Shown here in pieces: positions 27,553 through 51,560 of a stretch of 64,000 nucleotides of DNA; the first letter of the stretch is position 1; each line of letters begins with the position of its first letter. The stretch comes from Hypomyces perniciosus (taxonomy: Eukaryota; Ascomycota; Sordariomycetes; Hypocreales; Hypocreaceae): assembly GCA_008477525.1 (NCBI GenBank), contig SPDT01000008.1, positions 992,001 to 1,056,000 on the forward strand. Reading direction: 5' to 3'. The translations under genes and the position numbers were made by a program. Under the pieces are notes generated by a model, which saw only the letters and a list, made by a program, of their open reading frames with translations, did no database searches and had not been told where the DNA came from.

Positions 27553-29788
27553 ATGTCAAGTGGGATGGGGTACCGTTGTCAATACTGTGATGATCTGTCC
27601 ATCGAATGTTTGGTGAACTTGGCAAAGAAGGAATTCGCCGGCCATGAGTTCCCAACTACAGCCTATTACCAACACCACAGCTCCTTCGGAGACATGGATC
27701 GGTCAGCTAGGGCTGGGTGTGATTTGTGTCAGCTCATAATAGAGTGCTTCAAAGGAATCCGTTGGGAACCGGGAGAAAGTCTCGACTTCACGTCGGAATC
27801 GTGGGAAGGTCCAGAATGCGACATCGAGGCTTCCGCCTATGCTGTCGCCATGAAACTTGACGTATCAGACGTCAAACTCTGCATTAACACTGATCACCTT
27901 TATATGGAGGAGCTTTTGGAAAATGTCCGTGTTTTCAACACCCTGTTAGTTCAAGTGGGCACTCAGGAGTTACCGGACGACGGTTGTGATTACCCATTCC
28001 CGTTCCTAGCTTTTGCACTGAGCACACCATTAAGTATGGGTTTCTTGGCATCCTCTCTACCGTTTTTTATCTAACTTCTAGTGAAATGAAGACAAGATTG
28101 TGGAAGAAGGAGGCTTTCGGATTGGGCGTTTCCACGTCGACCCTGATTTGAGGTCTTCGGCGAACTTTGCCATCGCAAGATCTTGGCTCAATGAGTGTCA
28201 GACAACTCATAGGACCTGTCTGAAGAAAGTCACTCCTGAGCTCCCCAAGCGTGTGATCGACATTGGGCCGCTAGACAGCCCCATCACGCCTCGGATCTTC
28301 ATGCCTCACGATGTAAGATCGGATTATGTTGTGCTTAGCCACTCCTGGGGTGGGAATATACCTACCATGCTCACTACAAAAACATACGATGAGTATCAAC
28401 GGACATTGCCCTACTCTGAATTGCCAGCAAATTTTCGCGATACTCTTGAAATTGCTAAGGAACTAGGAATTCGGTACGTGTGGGTCGACTCCCTATGCAT
28501 CATACAAGACTCGAAGGATGATTGGGCATCTGAATCCAAGAAAATGGGTGGGATCTACCGGAACGCTACGCTGGCAATTTCGGCCCTGGTCTCTGAGAAT
28601 AGCACGGTGGGTATTCTCAAGACAAGTCGAGATTACACGCTAGGAGTGCCGAGCAGAGCAGGCATACGAGTCCTCAGAGATAAAGCCGCGATAGAGGAAG
28701 TCCGAGTGGAGTGGAAGCCGTTTGAGGAGGAGAATCTACGCCGCCTAGCATTGAACAGTCCGCATTCACGCAGAGCTTGGACTCTGCAAGAGTTTGTTCT
28801 CTCGCCTAGGAATCTTCTTTATGGTCATCGCCAGATATATTGGAGATGCCCAAGTCAGATGAAATCAGCTGACGGCACCCCTGAAGGCAACCAGTTTCCT
28901 GACTCATCATTCCAAGTTGCCTCAGGGGTTATTTACTCGGACATTCTGGCATCAAAGCCTGACAAACCAGTGGACATCAACACCCTCCTAACGGACTATT
29001 ACGAGTTGGCTGAGGGTTATTCGGCACGGAAACTGACGTTTGGCTCAGATAAGCTTCCTGCCTTCGCTGGTATAGCCTCAAGTCTTCAACTAATGCTTGG
29101 TGGAGACTATCTTGCGGGCCTCTGGACGACTGACCTGAAGCGAGGACTACTCTGGCAGGCAGATTTGTCCTTTTGTCGTCATGTTAAGACACATGGCGCC
29201 CCATCCTGGTCGTGGATGGTAACTGGCCAACCAATTCTCTTCCCCAAGAAAGCAACATGGCCAGGCCCATATGGGCTAGAACTAGTCCAATACGAAGTCA
29301 TGCTTCGGGATCCTACGAATCCCTTTGGCCCCATCGACTACGCATGTATTGCTGTGAAGGGTCTTGCGGTCCCACTCAAGCGAAGCACACAAGTTGCGCG
29401 TTGCCATAGCCGGGACGAGCTGATATTTGGATATATCAACTATGACGAACCTTTGATGGAGAATGATAATGCTGGGAGAAATTCAATATTTCGAATGGAC
29501 AATGGAGACTCTAGCCCTTCCTTCGTTTCCATGTATACTGAGATGGGCTCTGATGATGTTGATGTCGATCCTAGTTTGTTTTCTGAAGGGGACTTGCTGC
29601 TTTTGCTAGTGCAAATAGAAGAGGATGTTGATGGAGAGAAGGGTAATAACTTTGGAGAGGGCCTTGCGATTCGTCGAGTCCCTGACCAGCCGGAGGACAC
29701 ATATGAGAGAATAGGCTATGCCATGTTCTGGAGGCCCAAGGTGGATTGGTTTAGAACCTGGCAGACCCGTGTCTTGAATCTCGTCTGA
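27553..29788 (+). CDS. Heterokaryon incompatibility (HET) domain protein
   Basis: Exons are 27553-28033 and 28092-29788, giving 725 residues. The HET domain spans about residues 239-330 with its usual blocks: YVVLSHSWGG, then NFRDTLEIAKELGIRYVWVDSLCIIQDS, and MGGIYRNATLAISA. It is followed by RAWTLQEFVLSPRNLLYG, the usual downstream block. The N-terminus has a CQYC...CDLC cysteine pair and the WLNECQTTHRTC segment common in this family. HET proteins trigger cell death when unlike hyphae fuse. Some act in non-self recognition more widely. The intron needs care. The first AG after the CTAAC branch site (28080-28081) would put a stop codon in frame, whereas the next AG (28090-28091) restores the frame. 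HET genes vary greatly between strains, so no specific incompatibility locus is claimed. Confidence 0.88.
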
Positions 29789-31938: not shown

Positions 31939-34208
31939 ATGAAGGTCGCGATGGCCTCCCTGGCTGTCCTTCTTGGGCTAGTCAGCACCGGATGGGCTAA
32001 CGACCACTTGTTGAGGAAGAGTGTAAGTACCATTTCATTTGGTGAGATTTGGCTGATTAGTCTTGTGCTTACAACTCTCTAGGCTGTAAGATTTTCACCA
32101 CTTCCCAGATTGGAAATCTGATTGTGGGCGACGTACTGACCAATCATGCTGTGATAGGAGGTAAGTTGTTATTGAAGGAACAGCAGTTCCGATTTCTCCT
32201 TGGCAGAATGCTAAAGCCTTTGGTAACTATAGAAGGTAAGTCCCTGACCAAAAGTGAGAAGTCTCATGGTAAATAAAAATACTGACATAAGATCTAGCCC
32301 GTGAGTTCTCGGTTCCCACACATTCTTGGTTGAAAGGCGATGACTTTTACGTGCTAACATCGCGATCAGTGTGTACGTTTCCTCAGACTCATGAGAATCT
32401 CACAAATTATTTGTTCCTCTGACTAACAATGAAATAGATTGTGAGTTGAATCCGACTACAGTTGGCAAAAATGTTGAGTGCTACGGCCTGCTAACATAGA
32501 TGATTATTTAAGTGTGTAAGTTAAAATGAATTCCTCACCCAGAATGCTCTGTGTGAAGGATGATGCTGACATATTAAAAACACCAGCTTGTAAGCTCTCG
32601 CAACCTTCCTTATGGGGTCAATTGACTCTTACATATTAAACTGACAATTCTAGGCGGTGAGTTCTCTTATACAATAAACAAAGATCAGACGCAATCATTG
32701 CTAACACCACTGGAAACTATAGGACGTAAGTGGAAGCTCCACTGTTAGGTAAATGACTGATGTCTAACAAGTTTGGCGACTTTCATCGTTATAGAATGTA
32801 TGTTTTCTCTGAGAAATCATGAATGCCTGGCTGGTGGTAACCTAATTTCGAAATATAGGGCGTAAGTCAATACTCATAAAAATTAACGAATCGAGCTAAA
32901 CTTAATGATCAATTAAAGCCAGTAAGTTTTCTTCCTTCATCTATTTAATTGTTTTCACTGTGCTAACCTGATATTTTAGTGTGTGAGTGACTGGAAGAGA
33001 ATCCGATACCTTACCCGGTACTGACATTCCACCTCTAGGATGTGAGTGTCTAGCTAGTGCAACATGGGATCCTACTGGCAACTATGCTAATATCAGACAA
33101 TCTTAGCCTATGAGTGAAATACTGAAATGAGAAAAATTATTTTCGCAAATAGTGTACTAACAGCAGGGCAGATAGTGAGTCTTCAACTCACAGCAAGAGT
33201 GAGCCAATAATTGCTTGGGGCGGACTAACATTATGTGATAATTTTAGTTTGTAAGTTTTTGAACTCCCCCCACCCATTCTTTTGAGTGAGACCAGCATTA
33301 ATATTTGGTATAGGATGTACGTTCCTCCTTTGGATCGACCATACATGTGGTTCTTGGCGTCCTGGCATTGCTGACAACCATAGCCTGTAAGTTCTTTCCA
33401 CCAGCCATGCATAATTTACTCACTTTGTGCTGACTCTCCTACTTGTTTAGTGCGTAAGTTTCCGCCATCGTAACCAGGAGCTCAAACCTCTTAAGCTGAC
33501 ATATCGCACTTCAGAAAGTAAGTTTCGCCCTGGATTATCTATTCGGTCCCCAGGCTACAGGAAATGAACTGACATCATTGATGCTTATAGACTGTATGTT
33601 TCCACTAATAACTTTCGAGCACACTGACTTGGACAATTATTGCTGACGCCATGGGCTTCCGTTCAACCGTTCAGGGTGTAAGTTCTATTCTATTCTTGAC
33701 CAAACCATATCAGATACGCAGTATACTAATCAACCATTCCACTGCAGGATGTAAGTACAGAGTGATCAGACTCGCATGAGAATCCTGATCGTTGACCACG
33801 TACTCATGGCGTTGGAATCTTTAGTGCGTAAGTATTTCCTGACACACAATCGGAAGAACATTGTCGTGGACTGCATGCTAACTAGTTGCCTCCTTGCAGT
33901 ATGTAAGTTCCCCACATATTGCTTTTGCGTGGTCTGACAGGCGGCATCTTAACTCACACCGTTATTCCCCTAGTGTGTAAGTTCCCCTTGCGATGACCCG
34001 AGAGCTGAATGTCAGCTAATGTCGGCTTCAGCCTGTGAGTCTACACCGATGATTGGCAAACGTTCTGACAACTGGCTTTGCTCTAACGAGGCGAGAATAA
34101 CTTTAGCCTGTGAGTTTATCTCCCTTTATTTGGAGAACTTGATCGAAACCAACAGGCTGATACAACGAGCGACTGTAGGACTTCTGGGCTGGCGGTGCAA
34201 CGGCGTAA
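31939..34208 (+). CDS. Secreted cysteine-rich peptide encoded by an array of single-codon exons
   Basis: Exon 1 (31939-32022) has 28 codons. It begins MKVAMASLAVLLGLVSTGWA, a clear signal peptide with likely cleavage after GWA, and ends LLRKS in phase 0. The donor GTAAGT follows. From there to 34109 the only recurring pattern is acceptor AG, exactly three bases, then a strong donor (GTAAGT, GTGAGT, GTACGT or GTATGT), repeated about 30 times at 58-84 nt spacing. The last exon (34179-34208) starts GAC TTC TGG and ends GCG TAA, in frame. The sum is about 67 residues: signal peptide, a short spacer, a tail with six cysteines arranged C-x-C-x6-C-x6-C-x4-C-x-C, and a C-terminus DFWAGGATA. An even cysteine count fits three disulfides in a small secreted protein. 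No codon in the array is a stop. Function is unknown; I do not recognise the family. It is followed by a hydrophobin and another secreted protein. An alternative acceptor at 34154-34155 for the last exon would leave a 46-nt intron and a different tail, and is less likely. Confidence 0.85.
32083..34109 (+). other. Array of single-codon exons: coordinates
   Basis: Each exon is 3 nt; the position of its first base is given. Ala GCT 32083; Glu GAG 32158; Lys AAG 32233; Pro CCC 32298; Cys TGT 32370; Ile ATT 32438; Cys TGT 32513; Leu CTT 32587; Ala GCG 32654; Asp GAC 32723; Asn AAT 32795; Gly GGC 32859; Pro CCA 32919; Cys TGT 32980; Asp GAT 33039; Pro CCT 33107 (damaged donor); Ile ATA 33172; Phe TTT 33248; Asp GAT 33314; Pro CCT 33384; Cys TGC 33451; Lys AAA 33515; Thr ACT 33591; Gly GGT 33675; Asp GAT 33748; Cys TGC 33825; Tyr TAT 33900; Cys TGT 33974; Pro CCT 34032; Pro CCT 34107. 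Intron lengths range from 55 to 81 nt, mostly 60-73. Nearly all contain a CTAAC, CTGAC or close variant some 10-35 nt before the acceptor. The introns show no obvious similarity to one another beyond these signals. Confidence 0.85.
33107..33115 (+). other. Single-codon exon with damaged donor site
   Basis: The pattern CTTAG, CCT, ATGAGT replaces the expected AG, codon, GTGAGT. One G-to-A change would turn a normal donor into ATGAGT. The spacing to its neighbours (65 and 62 nt) is normal for the array. If the site is dead, the two flanking introns fuse into one of 130 nt (33042-33171) and one proline drops out with the frame kept. Confidence 0.65.
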
Positions 34209-35213
34209 GTATCACATGGAGACACACGATTTCCATTGATGGAGGACGTACTCAGCCGTTGTATGGAGTTCTCCAGTGCTTGCGCTGGAGTTTAAGCTCG
34301 GCCGGTCGCGAGTGGGAAAATCGCCCTTGGTAGCTTTAGTTTTAGGTCCCCCTGAAATGAAAGCGTCAAAGGAGAACAAGGTGCATGAATGAGTGAGTCC
34401 CAAGGGATGCGTTGCGTTGGCTGCATGGCCTGTCTTGTCTTGTATTCAGCTGAATGTCCACCGTGCGTCTGAGTTTGGACCCTTGCTGGCGAATCGCTCC
34501 CTTTCTTGTTAGTCAAATGTTTCTCGCATGTCTGAATATTATTATTACCTGCCTCCCTTATATCGGAGATTACCCCTGTCTGACCTCCCGTGTCTCTGTC
34601 GCTCACGCATGTCTTAGATGCAAGGGCCGGGGTAAGCAGCAGCCCCACCTCCATATTGATGAAGCGAACAATCATTTGGTCTCCAAGAGACTACGGAGGA
34701 TGGCATACGGAAAATAACAATCAGGATGTTTTCAATAACAAAGCTCTGAATAGCAAAATACATAACATCATTATTTTCAAGGACCTTTGGCCACGAGCCA
34801 TATTCGCTTGGCGCACCAGAAATTGCGTGGCAGTGTTGTCTGGCTCTGTTATCCACCTTTTCTTCCTTTTTCTCTCCCTCCCTTGGGGCTGCTTGCCAAA
34901 CACGCATCCACACACAGCAGGACTATCTTGATCTGCATGTTTCTCCCTTGCTTCCTCACCGAAAATTACGGGAAGACAAACCAAGAACAACACTTGAGAC
35001 CAGAATGTCGGCTGGTCACCGCTCGTCTTCACAAGTTGTCTCCCTTTCAAGATGGGTCTTTTCTAGATATAAAAGCCCCGAGTCCTTCTGCCCATTATCT
35101 CCCATCTCATCATCATCATTCATCCAATTCAACAATCACTTCCAACTCAACAACTCCACTCCACTATCACCAACGAAGCCTTCCTTCGCTTACCAACCAC
35201 CAAATCCATCAAA
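34209..35213. other. Intergenic stretch upstream of hydrophobin
   Basis: No supported gene. The final 150 bp form the hydrophobin promoter and a C/A-rich leader. Confidence 0.5.
35068..35074 (+). promoter_or_regulatory. TATA box of the hydrophobin gene
   Basis: TATAAAA lies about 140 bp upstream of the hydrophobin ATG. It is followed by a CA/CT-rich leader with repeated CATC and CAAC words, typical of strongly expressed fungal genes. Confidence 0.65.
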
Positions 35214-35593
35214 ATGCAGTTCTTCGCCACCGCCGCCATCTTCCTCAGCGCTCTCGCTGTCCCCGCTGCCGCTGGAGACTACCAGGCCTGCCCTGGTGGT
35301 CTGCAGAGCAGTCCCCTGTGCTGCTCTACTGTCGTCCTTGGCGCAGTGTCTCTTGACTGCAAAGCCCGTAAGCCCTCCGCACCCCGTGCAATCAACCATC
35401 TTTCCCGGTCTAACATTTCTCAAGCATCCAAAGCTCCTACTAGCCGTGAGAACTTCATAGAAATCTGCGGTGCCGAGGGCAAACAGCCCGTGTGCTGTGG
35501 GATCCCTGTGGTGAGTAGTCCAAGCATCCTTGTGCGTAACCAAATTATCAAGACTCTTCACTATAGGCCAACCAGTGTCTCCTTTCCGCATAG
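35214..35593 (+). CDS. Class II hydrophobin
   Basis: Exons are 35214-35367, 35425-35510 and 35567-35593, giving 88 residues, the usual size. The signal peptide is MQFFATAAIFLSALAVPAAA. The eight cysteines follow the class II order C-CC-C-C-CC-C. Spacings are 9 residues between C1 and C2, 11 from C3 to C4, 16 from C4 to C5 and 8 from C5 to C6, all canonical. The last gap (C7 to C8) is 7 in this model, where 10 is usual, because the terminal exon reads ANQCLLSA rather than ending in a later cysteine. Hydrophobins are secreted, assemble at hydrophobic-hydrophilic interfaces and coat spores and aerial hyphae. A TATA box and leader are present. The two introns (57 and 56 nt) interrupt the gene at positions common in class II genes. 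The short last exon should be checked against cDNA. Confidence 0.9.
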
Positions 35594-36777
35594 CCTTTGT
35601 AAATCATGGTTTGGTGTGTTAGGTCTTGGATAATATATACGTCTGATTTCTCATGTCCCTTGAGAAATCATGGCGTGTTCGTTCTGAACGACCAAAACGC
35701 TATTGGAAAGCCGCGGCATAGGGCCAGAAATATCGATGGAGAATGGGGACAACATGTTCATTTCTGCAATTGGTACAAATTGTCTTATACAAATATCTTT
35801 TACTATAGATAAACATCCGCATTAAACCATCTATTTGCTACCCCGTGACACGTGGAGACAGAGCTTAATAGGAAGTGAGTTTCCTAGCGCAACTTTAAGA
35901 GTTATACAATTGTCATTGTCGAAGTCACTGCAAAAATGGACTTTCCCATCACCCAGTGTGAGGGTAGAAACCCGGCAGGCTTTGCTTTGGGCTGACCTAA
36001 TAATCTTCTTAATGCTTGGTGCCAACGCCTCAAGAATGCTTGTCATGTCCAAGTGATGCTTAGAAGTGGAAAGCTTGACTAAAGTTGGAATGCTTTAGAT
36101 CTAGCAGTAACTCACCCCAACAAGGGAAAAACAAAAAGCGAAGTAAACTGAGTTCGGTAAACACCGCCATGTTGTCACTAAGATAAGGTTGTTGACCGGA
36201 TGGCTGCTAATCCCAGGTAGTCAATTACAGAACTCCCACGATGTTGTTTACGGTCCTCCATAGGGTAGATAATGTAGGTAAGTGACCAGGATTTCGAAAT
36301 GGTGAAGCGAATCTCTAATGAGCGATAAAGGTGGCCAATAAGGTTATTGTGGCTGCCATATAGGCAGCCATCCAAGTTACTGACTTTTGACGGCCAATGC
36401 TGCTGATTTCTGGTCCGGTGACAGATTTAAGCTTATTATGGCTGCTTGTATGATGCAATTGGAAACCAAGATAGCTGCAATTACTGCAGAGGTTCATTTC
36501 TATGTTTCGCGCTTTTCGCTCACCTTACCCAACGTGTGATCGTCATTAGACGTGTAAACCGGGCTAATAAACCTTGCTCATACATGTGTTTTCCATGTTG
36601 TCGTAGAGTTAACTCTCCATGTTGGGTGAAAGGTTTGGTGAAAATGCTGATGATCGAAGTGCAGGAATACAACTATATAAGGCTTCCCTCATCCCGTCCT
36701 GGTCATCTTGGGATTCTTCTCTCTTTACCACCACAACAAGTCATCTCTCCTACTTCTGTTTACTTATCACGTTCACA
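35594..36777. other. Intergenic stretch
   Basis: No gene is seen. The last 100 bp are the promoter and leader of the small secreted protein. Confidence 0.5.
36674..36680 (+). promoter_or_regulatory. TATA box of the small secreted protein gene
   Basis: TATATAA lies about 100 bp upstream of the ATG at 36778, followed by a pyrimidine/CA-rich leader. Confidence 0.6.
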
Positions 36778-49192: not shown

Positions 49193-49652
49193 TATCACAA
49201 AACAAACTTGCGACAATGCAACACATGCGACAGTGCGAGGGGCTCTATTCGAACCTCAATACCTCCTCAGATCTCAGACCAGATACATCGAATAGACGGT
49301 ATATATAGCGACAGGTGTGGACAATTGAATATACATGCCATAGGGTTTGGCGTCGAGAACTGTCAGCCAGCTGGTGACTGGAAGCGCATTCGAATCGCTT
49401 TCACTCTTGTCTGATCTTTGATACGCGTCGGAAATGGCAGAACGTTTAGATTATTCCCAGCTGGGTTAGTGTTAATGAAGGTCATTGTGCAGATTCAGCC
49501 TAGTGGCATTCACCGCCTTCAGAGCCCCCTGTATCCACTGTACCCACCCCTGTCACTTTCGGCAGAAAAAGTGCCGAATGATGATGAAATAATATTCACC
49601 AGGCTTCTCAAACCACAAACACCATGAAGCCCGAACATCAGTTATCCCAGAG
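49193..49652. promoter_or_regulatory. Divergent promoter: remodeler and rRNA methyltransferase
   Basis: 460 bp between divergent starts. No TATA-like element stands out. Confidence 0.45.
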
Positions 49653-51560
49653 ATGATACATGCTGGCCAATGGAGGGCCACCGGCTTATGCCGCCAGCTT
49701 TCCCTTACAGCATATAATACCAAAGGCATCTCACTTTTAACGAGTCGTGCCGCCAGTCTCTCCGCAATTCACCGTGGAGTGCGACGATCCGAAAGAGTCC
49801 AGTTCGGGGCCCAGTCAGACAGAGGAAGAAGCAGTCGATTAACTGACAGGGCCTTTGATGGCGCTGCATCCCCACGGCAGCAACAAAAACTACGAAAGAA
49901 GCTGGATCGCAAAGCTTTTGGGGAGGAGGAGGAGGAGTCCGGACGGCAAACCAGACGAAAGCGCTTCACCGACCCAGAGTCCTCCTTTGGAAAGAAAAGT
50001 CTAGTCTATCAACTTAAGCATGGTGCATTCAGGGACGAGGCCGCCTCCCTGCCTTTGGATGAGCCTGTGCGGCCGCTGCCGTTTCGGCCGCTGAGGCCAG
50101 AGCTGCGATCCCGCCGAGGCGCGCAGGATTGGGAGAATTCTCGCCCCGGTGCCCAAATGTACGATAGGAAGAGAGATCCCGCCGCAAGAGCACCATGGGA
50201 GAACTCCCGCCTCGATGCCCAAAAGTATGATAAGAGAGATCCTATCAGAAGGGCATCGTGGGACAATTCTCGCCCCGATGCCCAAAAATACGATGGGAAT
50301 GAAGATTCTGCTCCGAGGGCACCATGGAGAAATTCTCGCCCTAATACCCAAAGATATGATAGCGGGGAAGATCATACCCTGAGGGCCCAGTGGGGGGATT
50401 CTCGCCCTAATGCCTCAAAATATGATGGGAAGGAAGATGCTTCTCTGAGGGCACCATGGGGGAATTCTCGTCCCGATGCCCCCAAATATGATAGGGAGGA
50501 CGATGTGCCTGAGCGTCGGCCGAAGAGGCCCATGATGCCCATGAACATCAAGTACACCACCGCAGCGTCTCAATTCCTGTACGGCAAGTCCGTCGTAAAG
50601 GCCGCTCTGGAGCATGGGAGGCGCATGCTATACAATCTTTACATCTACGGAGGCGATAATCGTAAAGACTCAAAAGATAATGCCATCATAACGAGACTGG
50701 CAGAGAAGCGTGGGGTGCCAGTCACCATCGTTCCCAACGGAGAGCAGCGTTTGATGGACAAAATGAGTATGGGCCGGCCACACAATGGCTTCGTTCTCGA
50801 AACATCGCCATTGCCTCAGCTCCCTGTAACATCACTGGGCAGATTAGAGGAGTCGCCCGCCAGACTAGGTTTCCACGTTGAATTAGACCATCAATCGAAG
50901 GAGGAGGAAGCTATTAACGGCCGTGACACTTTTGTTGCCCGCAAAAACGACATCACCCCCAAGCCGTTCGTGCTGCTCCTCAACGAGATCTTGGATCCAG
51001 GCAACTTGGGAGCTCTACTCCGTACAGCGAGCTATCTTGGTGTTGACGCCGTTGGTATCACGAATCGCAGCACGTCTACGCTCACCCCTGTGGTCTTGAA
51101 GTCTGCAGCTGGTGCCGTGGAAGAGGTTACCATATTCACAGTCGACTCCCCCTTGAAGTTCATCGAGGACTCCAAAAAGGCAGGGTGGAAAACTTACGCC
51201 GCTGTGGCACCGCCAGAACTCAAGCTCGCGCGAAAGCACTGCGACAAGTTCATATCGACGGATGACATTATCCAAGACGATCCCTTGGCCAACAACCCAT
51301 GCATTTTAGTGCTGGGTAATGAGGGCCATGGCTTGTCCAAACCGATCAAGGTAGCTGCAGATTACGAGCTCTCGGTGCCTCGGTTTGTCCAGAATAGCAC
51401 TGTTGACAGCTTGAACGTCAGCGTTGCGGCTGGACTGTTGTGTCATGCCTTCGTCACAGCAAACCCTGCCGAGAAATCAGTGTCTGCCGAGTCGAAAGCC
51501 GACAGCGAGGCTAGCTCAGAAGCTACCTATGAGACGAAGGAACGGGACGCATTGTTTTGA
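49653..51560 (+). CDS. Mitochondrial SpoU-family rRNA 2'-O-methyltransferase (Mrm1-like)
   Basis: A single exon encodes 635 residues. The N-terminus is basic and free of acidic residues for about 45 residues, as in a mitochondrial targeting peptide. A disordered region with six imperfect repeats follows (about residues 158-292). The SpoU substrate-binding domain begins near 300 (SQFLYGKSVVKAALEH; RGVPVTIVPNGEQRLMDKMS; RPHNGFVLE). The SPOUT catalytic blocks are LNEILDPGNLGALLRTASYL near 446, LVLGNEGHGL near 551 and SLNVSVAAGLL near 586; these correspond to motifs 1-3, including the conserved N...R and NEG residues. The known activity is ribose methylation of a guanosine in mitochondrial large-subunit rRNA using S-adenosylmethionine. 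The repeat block is not part of the usual family architecture. The 3' end overlaps the convergent gene by 38 bp. Confidence 0.88.
   Translation: MIHAGQWRATGLCRQLSLTAYNTKGISLLTSRAASLSAIHRGVRRSERVQFGAQSDRGRSSRLTDRAFDGAASPRQQQKLRKKLDRKAFGEEEEESGRQTRRKRFTDPESSFGKKSLVYQLKHGAFRDEAASLPLDEPVRPLPFRPLRPELRSRRGAQDWENSRPGAQMYDRKRDPAARAPWENSRLDAQKYDKRDPIRRASWDNSRPDAQKYDGNEDSAPRAPWRNSRPNTQRYDSGEDHTLRAQWGDSRPNASKYDGKEDASLRAPWGNSRPDAPKYDREDDVPERRPKRPMMPMNIKYTTAASQFLYGKSVVKAALEHGRRMLYNLYIYGGDNRKDSKDNAIITRLAEKRGVPVTIVPNGEQRLMDKMSMGRPHNGFVLETSPLPQLPVTSLGRLEESPARLGFHVELDHQSKEEEAINGRDTFVARKNDITPKPFVLLLNEILDPGNLGALLRTASYLGVDAVGITNRSTSTLTPVVLKSAAGAVEEVTIFTVDSPLKFIEDSKKAGWKTYAAVAPPELKLARKHCDKFISTDDIIQDDPLANNPCILVLGNEGHGLSKPIKVAADYELSVPRFVQNSTVDSLNVSVAAGLLCHAFVTANPAEKSVSAESKADSEASSEATYETKERDALF
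50130..50516 (+). repeat. In-frame tandem repeats inside the rRNA methyltransferase gene
   Basis: Six copies of a 63-66 bp unit encode variants of W-x-N-S-R-P-x-A-x-K-Y-D plus an acidic/basic spacer ending RAP or similar. Copies begin at the residues DWENSRPGAQ, WENSRLDAQ, WDNSRPDAQ, WRNSRPNTQ, WGDSRPNAS and WGNSRPDAP. The nucleotide words ATTCTCGCCC and GATGCCCAAA recur. Confidence 0.85.

Follow-up and report, generated by a model that had tools for sequence, protein, structure and literature searches.

A putative micro-exon gene with a run of 29 candidate one-codon exons in a Hypocreales-like fungus

Results

The 64-kb window studied here (the whole stretch of DNA that was analysed, belonging to a 44.0-Mb genome in 23 contigs) carries at positions 31939-34208 of the + strand an array of short intron-like sequences separated by single codons, which we read as a probable micro-exon gene. 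The motif AG-NNN-GT[AG]NG occurs 30 times in this region, from 32020 to 34109 (+). The first of these occurrences closes exon 1 (AGT, 32020-32022), and the array thus comprises 29 free-standing exons of 3 nucleotides (nt) and 30 introns. The 29 three-base inserts lie between exon 1 (31939-32022) and the last exon (34179-34208), each flanked by an intron-like acceptor and donor, and all of them (29/29) are 3 nt long, in phase 0 and symmetric. It should be noted that the length of 3 is part of the search motif; other lengths were tried separately and showed no enrichment. Exon 1 (+) has 28 codons, MKVAMASLAVLLGLVSTGWANDHLLRKS, begins with ATG and ends at a donor GTAAGT; by eye and by its hydropathy, it looks like a signal peptide followed by a short pro-region.

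The candidate one-codon exons, all on the + strand and given in order with the residues that they would specify, are GCT (A, 32083-32085), GAG (E, 32158-32160), AAG (K, 32233-32235), CCC (P, 32298-32300), TGT (C, 32370-32372), ATT (I, 32438-32440), TGT (C, 32513-32515), CTT (L, 32587-32589), GCG (A, 32654-32656), GAC (D, 32723-32725), AAT (N, 32795-32797), GGC (G, 32859-32861), CCA (P, 32919-32921), TGT (C, 32980-32982), GAT (D, 33039-33041), ATA (I, 33172-33174), TTT (F, 33248-33250), GAT (D, 33314-33316), CCT (P, 33384-33386), TGC (C, 33451-33453), AAA (K, 33515-33517), ACT (T, 33591-33593), GGT (G, 33675-33677), GAT (D, 33748-33750), TGC (C, 33825-33827), TAT (Y, 33900-33902), TGT (C, 33974-33976), CCT (P, 34032-34034) and CCT (P, 34107-34109). 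The units are spaced by 58-84 nt with a single exception of 133 nt (33039 to 33172), and the corresponding introns measure 55-81 nt, with one of 130 nt. The initial annotation had described a repeated AG-NNN-GT motif with one codon in each insert, forming about 30 one-codon exons at nearly regular intervals of 58-84 nt behind a 28-codon signal-peptide exon. The motif (30 occurrences, with the 3-nt spacer alone enriched), the run itself and the start of the gene, with its ATG, hydrophobic stretch and GTAAGT donor as judged by eye and hydropathy, were borne out. The number of exons had to be corrected to 29, the first occurrence being the end of exon 1, and the regular spacing holds in general, with the interval from 33039 to 33172 having been omitted.

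This long interval hides an extra unit, composed of a 65-nt intron-like stretch (33042-33106) with the acceptor TTAG, the triplet CCT (33107-33109, +) and, at the donor position, ATGAGT. The acceptor of this defective 30th unit is good, and the triplet probably stays within the 130-nt intron (33042-33171); its loss would be frame-neutral because the unit is one codon. At the other irregular point of the array, the last exon (34179-34208, +) encodes DFWAGGATA followed by TAA. This in-frame TAA (34206-34208) is real, as the initial annotation had stated, and it sits within a GTAAGT (34205-34210), so that the end of the exon is ambiguous and the C-terminus uncertain. By eye, a possible 31st intron of 72 nt (34205-34276, +, GTAAGT to CAG) would remove the TAA. 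This candidate is without the branch-site word CTRAY; its branch word would be TACTCA, which intron 25 also contains. With it spliced out, an alternative last exon (34277-34297, +) joined to 34179-34204 would give DFWAGGATAACAGV and then TAA, in place of DFWAGGATA.

In order to compare the array with chance expectation, the stricter pattern AG-NNN-GTRNGY was counted: it has 29 sites in the array, where its frequency in the remaining window would predict 0.53. Dinucleotide shuffling (1000 rounds) gave a mean of 0.47 and a maximum of 3, and the opposite strand has 1 site at spacer length 3. Among spacer lengths from 0 to 30 nt, enrichment was observed at 3 only, the lengths 0-2 and 4-30 giving 0-4 sites each on the + strand. 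U2-type splice signals are present at nearly every unit. Since the units were selected by AG, GT, R at +3 and G at +5, full agreement at these positions is by construction; T at +6 and the Y of the acceptor lie outside the search motif, the former being found in 28/30 introns and YAG likewise in 28/30, with AAG in the other 2. Donors are GTAAGT in 16/30 and GTGAGT in 8/30 cases (together 24/30 GTRAGT). In addition, CTRAY occurs at a fitting distance in 27 of the 30 introns, when 2000 shufflings of the intron interiors gave a mean of 4.4 and a maximum of 13, and the background is 170 of 1664 window stretches of 36 nt. As far as CTRAY goes, the claim that every intron has its own branch-site-like word is borne out for these 27, and introns 3, 13 and 18 lack this word. 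When introns were chained under strict criteria (acceptor YAG, length 45-124 nt and a YTRAY branch word), the array fell into runs of 14, 8 and 3 introns, and outside it neither strand of the 64-kb window had a chain of at least three such introns with exons of up to 30 nt.

The product joined from these exons has 66 residues, a hydrophobic N-terminus by hydropathy and six cysteines (Cys), and it looks like a secreted peptide. The Cys are spaced C-x-C-x6-C-x5-C-x4-C-x-C, with one C-I-C and one C-Y-C, and a disulfide-stabilised secreted peptide would be the most likely kind of product. Six of the 29 one-codon exons encode Cys, far beyond chance, as had been claimed: when codon positions were permuted among units (20000 permutations), the mean was 1.75 (P=0.0002). 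The choice of Cys was post hoc, and P multiplied by the 20 residues is still about 0.004. Outside the array, the window has 56 look-alike sites, with 1 Cys codon and 3 stops among them, and Cys makes up 1.4% of the residues in the seven long open reading frames (ORFs) of the window. The number of Cys had been said to be even, which is correct for the six array codons; the alternative C-terminus would bring a seventh, and the even number is therefore not certain. Similarly, there is indeed no stop among the 29 inserts, an observation of little weight, since 43% of the permutations were also free of stops. Regarding the consequences for the frame, skipping of any one-codon exon keeps it, and retention of any of the 30 introns disrupts it, in 23 cases via an in-frame stop and in 7 via length. 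Only two of the codons (GAG, AAG) end in AG, a scarcity that would make sense, as an AG at the end of an exon would be a competing acceptor three bases on.

The search for relatives was carried out at the protein and the DNA level. Compared with 5.8 billion proteins, the 66-residue product had one candidate sharing words with it and none at an E value of 10 or better, and neither a Pfam family nor a PDB sequence match was obtained. The null result of the protein search says little, because a gene of this structure is unlikely to be put together by gene callers. Within its own genome, no second copy was detected by DNA or by exon 1, among the best-scoring candidates. A pattern of two consecutive units has 35 places in the genome versus 69 for the backward control, which means that it is not enriched genome-wide; 12 of the 35 places are within the array and the other 23 are scattered. 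When both strands of these 23 loci were scanned, no array like that at 31939-34208 appeared: the longest chain with 3-nt exons had 2 introns (3/23 loci), and the longest with exons of 1-30 nt had 3 introns (3/23 loci). Under looser rules (exons of up to 40 nt), applied to 5 of the 23, chains of 3-4 introns were present in 3, chance-like by eye. Furthermore, the pattern of Cys codons has 14 places in the genome (24 for the backward control), 3 of them in the array and the remainder not clustered. As a separate observation, three near-alike 76-base pattern matches (C5:2036894, C8:2356691 and C10:2170327) look like copies of one dispersed repeat, and an identical pair (C9:327597 and C9:970176) comes from another repeat than this trio.

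The introns were also compared among themselves. Their mean pair score is slightly raised with respect to shuffled letters (7.24 vs 6.84, standard deviation 0.06). For the intron cores (29 of 30, the 130-nt intron being excluded) the mean is 6.31, compared with 5.99 for the reversed sequence and 6.38 for random fragments of the window. Introner-type introns are alike among themselves or to other copies in the genome. Such an origin was rejected, given that the introns are no more alike than random window fragments and that the DNA search of the own genome, of limited sensitivity, finds the locus alone. Tandem duplication was likewise set aside, as the similarity tests show no common origin of the introns, although there may have been old duplications; a tandem-repeat scan of the window listed no array at the locus.

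Discussion

Our favoured explanation is that the locus is a protein-coding micro-exon gene in which 29 consecutive one-codon exons encode nearly all of a small cysteine-rich secreted peptide in its mature form, and we consider this quite probable. It is preferred because the spacer of 3 alone is enriched, because T at +6, YAG and CTRAY accompany the selected positions, because the Cys codons are not random and because the ends are in frame. The splicing of the array itself is something that we infer, and the reading as a micro-exon gene rests on the genomic sequence of one locus. Several observations weigh against it. No relative scored in the protein search, CTRAY is missing in introns 3, 13 and 18, and the absence of stop codons is weak evidence for coding. 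The base preceding a donor is usually G, and 18 of the 29 codons end in T, compared with 25% T at third positions in the seven long ORFs. The unit at 33107 has AT, not GT, at its donor, so the locus may be decaying. Furthermore, a useful yield needs very high accuracy over 30 steps.

How such a gene might be spliced can be proposed from the general features of fungal introns. In ascomycetes, introns are short, and the common view is that each is recognised as a whole. Each intron of roughly 70 nt in the array would be recognised as a unit by the spliceosome (intron definition); a donor, a branch word and an acceptor are all present at nearly every unit, and hence each of the 30 introns should be recognisable alone. 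An exon of 3 nt would be too short to hold factors on both of its sides at once, so neighbouring introns would have to be removed successively. We infer stepwise splicing, adding one codon at a time, in either order. A study in plants reports that the two introns flanking a micro-exon are removed one after the other, since so small an exon cannot serve both together, and that removal more often began with the downstream intron than with the upstream one (PMC8831610). This tendency gives no support to a strict 5'-to-3' uptake of codons, which also counts against the favoured explanation. The product would then be exported, with removal of the signal peptide and formation of up to three disulfides. 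A skipped exon would yield a peptide shorter by one residue with the frame kept, and a retained intron would break the frame.

These consequences bear on a reading that is compatible with the micro-exon gene just described, namely that the locus is a combinatorial peptide generator acting through exon skipping, as proposed for schistosome micro-exon genes. Every internal exon is frame-neutral if skipped and retention is disruptive for 30/30 introns, as this reading would expect; on the other hand, the donors near consensus (24/30 GTRAGT) argue for constitutive use, and skipping of a Cys codon would spoil the disulfide pairing. Taken together, we regard a generator of this kind as rather unlikely. 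A related and bolder idea, that a functional peptide domain is split into exons of one codon throughout (approximately 30 successive splicing events) and that frame-neutral skipping yields a library of one-residue variants of a secreted cysteine-rich peptide, is put forward tentatively and would be the less expected outcome.

Two further readings seem to us improbable, and to a similar degree. According to one of them, the locus contains one long intron of about 2.15 kb with a ladder of internal sites used in a recursive, ratchet-like manner, so that most inserts are lost and exon 1 plus the last exon form a short peptide product. The uniform length of 3 nt speaks for it in that any number of inserts could be skipped in frame, and an AG near a GT resembles recursive sites. 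The classical recursive splice site has AG directly followed by GT, an arrangement found 2 times in the array versus 29 for the three-base spacing. The inserts are moreover non-random (Cys, P=0.0002), and we know of no need that a 70-nt ladder across 2 kb would meet. Recursive splicing as such is established, with most accounts coming from very long introns (PMC13149111). The other reading is that of a decayed or dying gene, whose array was formerly coding and whose product is no longer made. The AT donor at 33107, the ambiguous 3' end and the failure of the searches made to find relatives or a second copy would fit this history. Against it, 29 units retain complete donors and acceptors, when neutral decay should have broken more of them in 2 kb, and the unit at 33107 costs one residue only. 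Finally, a transcript without coding function or an accidental grouping of intron-like words, with which the lack of a relative and of an annotated domain would agree, can practically be dismissed: 29 sites face at most 3 in 1000 shuffles and CTRAY stands at 27/30 against 4.4, for which reasons, together with the Cys enrichment, a chance cluster was ruled out, and a non-coding transcript leaves the exact 3-nt spacing, that enrichment and the in-frame ends unexplained.

Returning to the micro-exon gene as the preferred explanation, the origin of its array can be considered. A length of 3 nt throughout speaks against random, independent insertions of introns and in favour of growth through duplication of a [codon + intron] unit. 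Since the introns are not alike beyond random fragments, such a duplication would be old, or the mechanism differs.

The sequence presents the structural hallmarks of micro-exon genes, that is, many tiny, regularly spaced, symmetric internal exons in multiples of three. Schistosome micro-exon genes (MEGs) encode small secreted proteins with a signal peptide and many tiny internal exons, mostly multiples of three; they are described with 10-20 short exons, mostly of 15 bp (minimum 6 bp in the text and 3-81 bp in the abstract of the source), and introns of 0.1-5 kb (PMC10526429). The many tiny internal exons are common to MEGs and the array, whose putative product would likewise begin with a signal peptide. 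Unlike the MEGs so described, the array belongs to another kingdom, has 29 exons of exactly 3 nt and has introns that, at 55-81 nt with a single one of 130, do not match the long introns (0.1-5 kb) of the MEG family. At the level of the product, no relative scored in the protein database, a search that included no direct comparison with MEG sequences.

The aphid bicycle genes offer a second point of comparison. Bicycle proteins carry two C-Y-C motifs, and the array product has one C-Y-C plus one C-I-C, a likeness that is perhaps a coincidence. Bicycle genes, among them a megacycle gene with more than 100 micro-exons, have small exons nearly all of one phase (phase 2), evolve fast, are implicated as effectors and encode C-Y-C motifs (PMC9168663). 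The array resembles them in its many small one-phase exons and differs in that these are all in phase 0 and of 3 nt, against almost all in phase 2 for the bicycle genes as reported there, which places it apart from that family. By its sequence, the putative gene is therefore of the micro-exon kind in structure and lies outside the MEG and bicycle families, departing from each in one tested structural feature.

Exons as short as those proposed here have been reported in other organisms. Isolated 3-nt exons are present in human RPS24 (PMC11162997) and in Drosophila homothorax (PMC7392893), and two 3-nt exons occur in lipS of the fungus Dactylellina haptotyla (PMC5639578); the exon length is that of the array, with one or two per gene in these accounts versus a run of 29. 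Plant micro-exons go down to 1 nt (APC11, VPS55), and the VPS55 exon has GTRAGT donors (PMC8831610), like most introns of the array; unlike in the array, plant micro-exons are described there as single or as two adjacent per gene. Within the ascomycetes, stwintrons are U2 introns that lie together and need consecutive splicing, the inner intron usually interrupting a splice signal of the outer one and in one class adjoining its donor (PMC9024468). The array does not have this organisation as described, each of its intact introns being complete and one codon being kept between neighbours.

The initial annotation had considered a run of single-codon exons of this extent as not known to be described. 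In agreement with this, no description was found in the titles and abstracts of the papers that searches of the open-licence PMC library listed, outside which most subscription papers and preprints fall; the shorter 3-nt cases mentioned above are known. If the proposed structure is true, it would be, to the extent covered by these searches, the longest run of single-codon exons described, and it would mean that the spliceosome is able to join 3-nt exons about 30 times in succession. It would also bear on the sharing of adjacent splice sites, on the order in which neighbouring introns are removed, on exon-junction marks and on the origin of such arrays, and it offers an extreme test case for the handling of tiny exons by the splicing machinery. 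In practical terms, genes of this kind would probably escape ordinary gene finders and read mappers, and fungal peptide catalogues may lack a class.

Genomic context

The genes of the window are of the filamentous ascomycete type, including a HET (heterokaryon incompatibility) domain, a class II hydrophobin and a Mit1-type remodeller. Among the best 120 of 395 relatives for a part of the remodeller, the closest with a name come from Purpureocillium lilacinum (59% identity over 91%) and Trichoderma longibrachiatum (67% identity over 75%), both Hypocreales, and the host, judged by these genes, is a Hypocreales-like fungus without a close named relative among those 120. Scans of other types (bacterial-type promoters, an Rfam search and a tRNA search) gave nothing useful.

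About 2 kb upstream of the array lies the ORF with the HET domain (28085-29788, +). Approximately 1 kb downstream, the class II hydrophobin gene starts from about 35214 (+), with Pfam Hydrophobin_2 on the ORF 35073-35633; by eye, this gene apparently has two ordinary short introns, in contrast to the array. Further along the window, an ORF with a SpoU-type RNA methyltransferase domain (49593-51560, +) houses, within its reading frame at 50130-50504 (+), a tandem repeat that is imperfect and has a unit of about 66 bp (22 codons).
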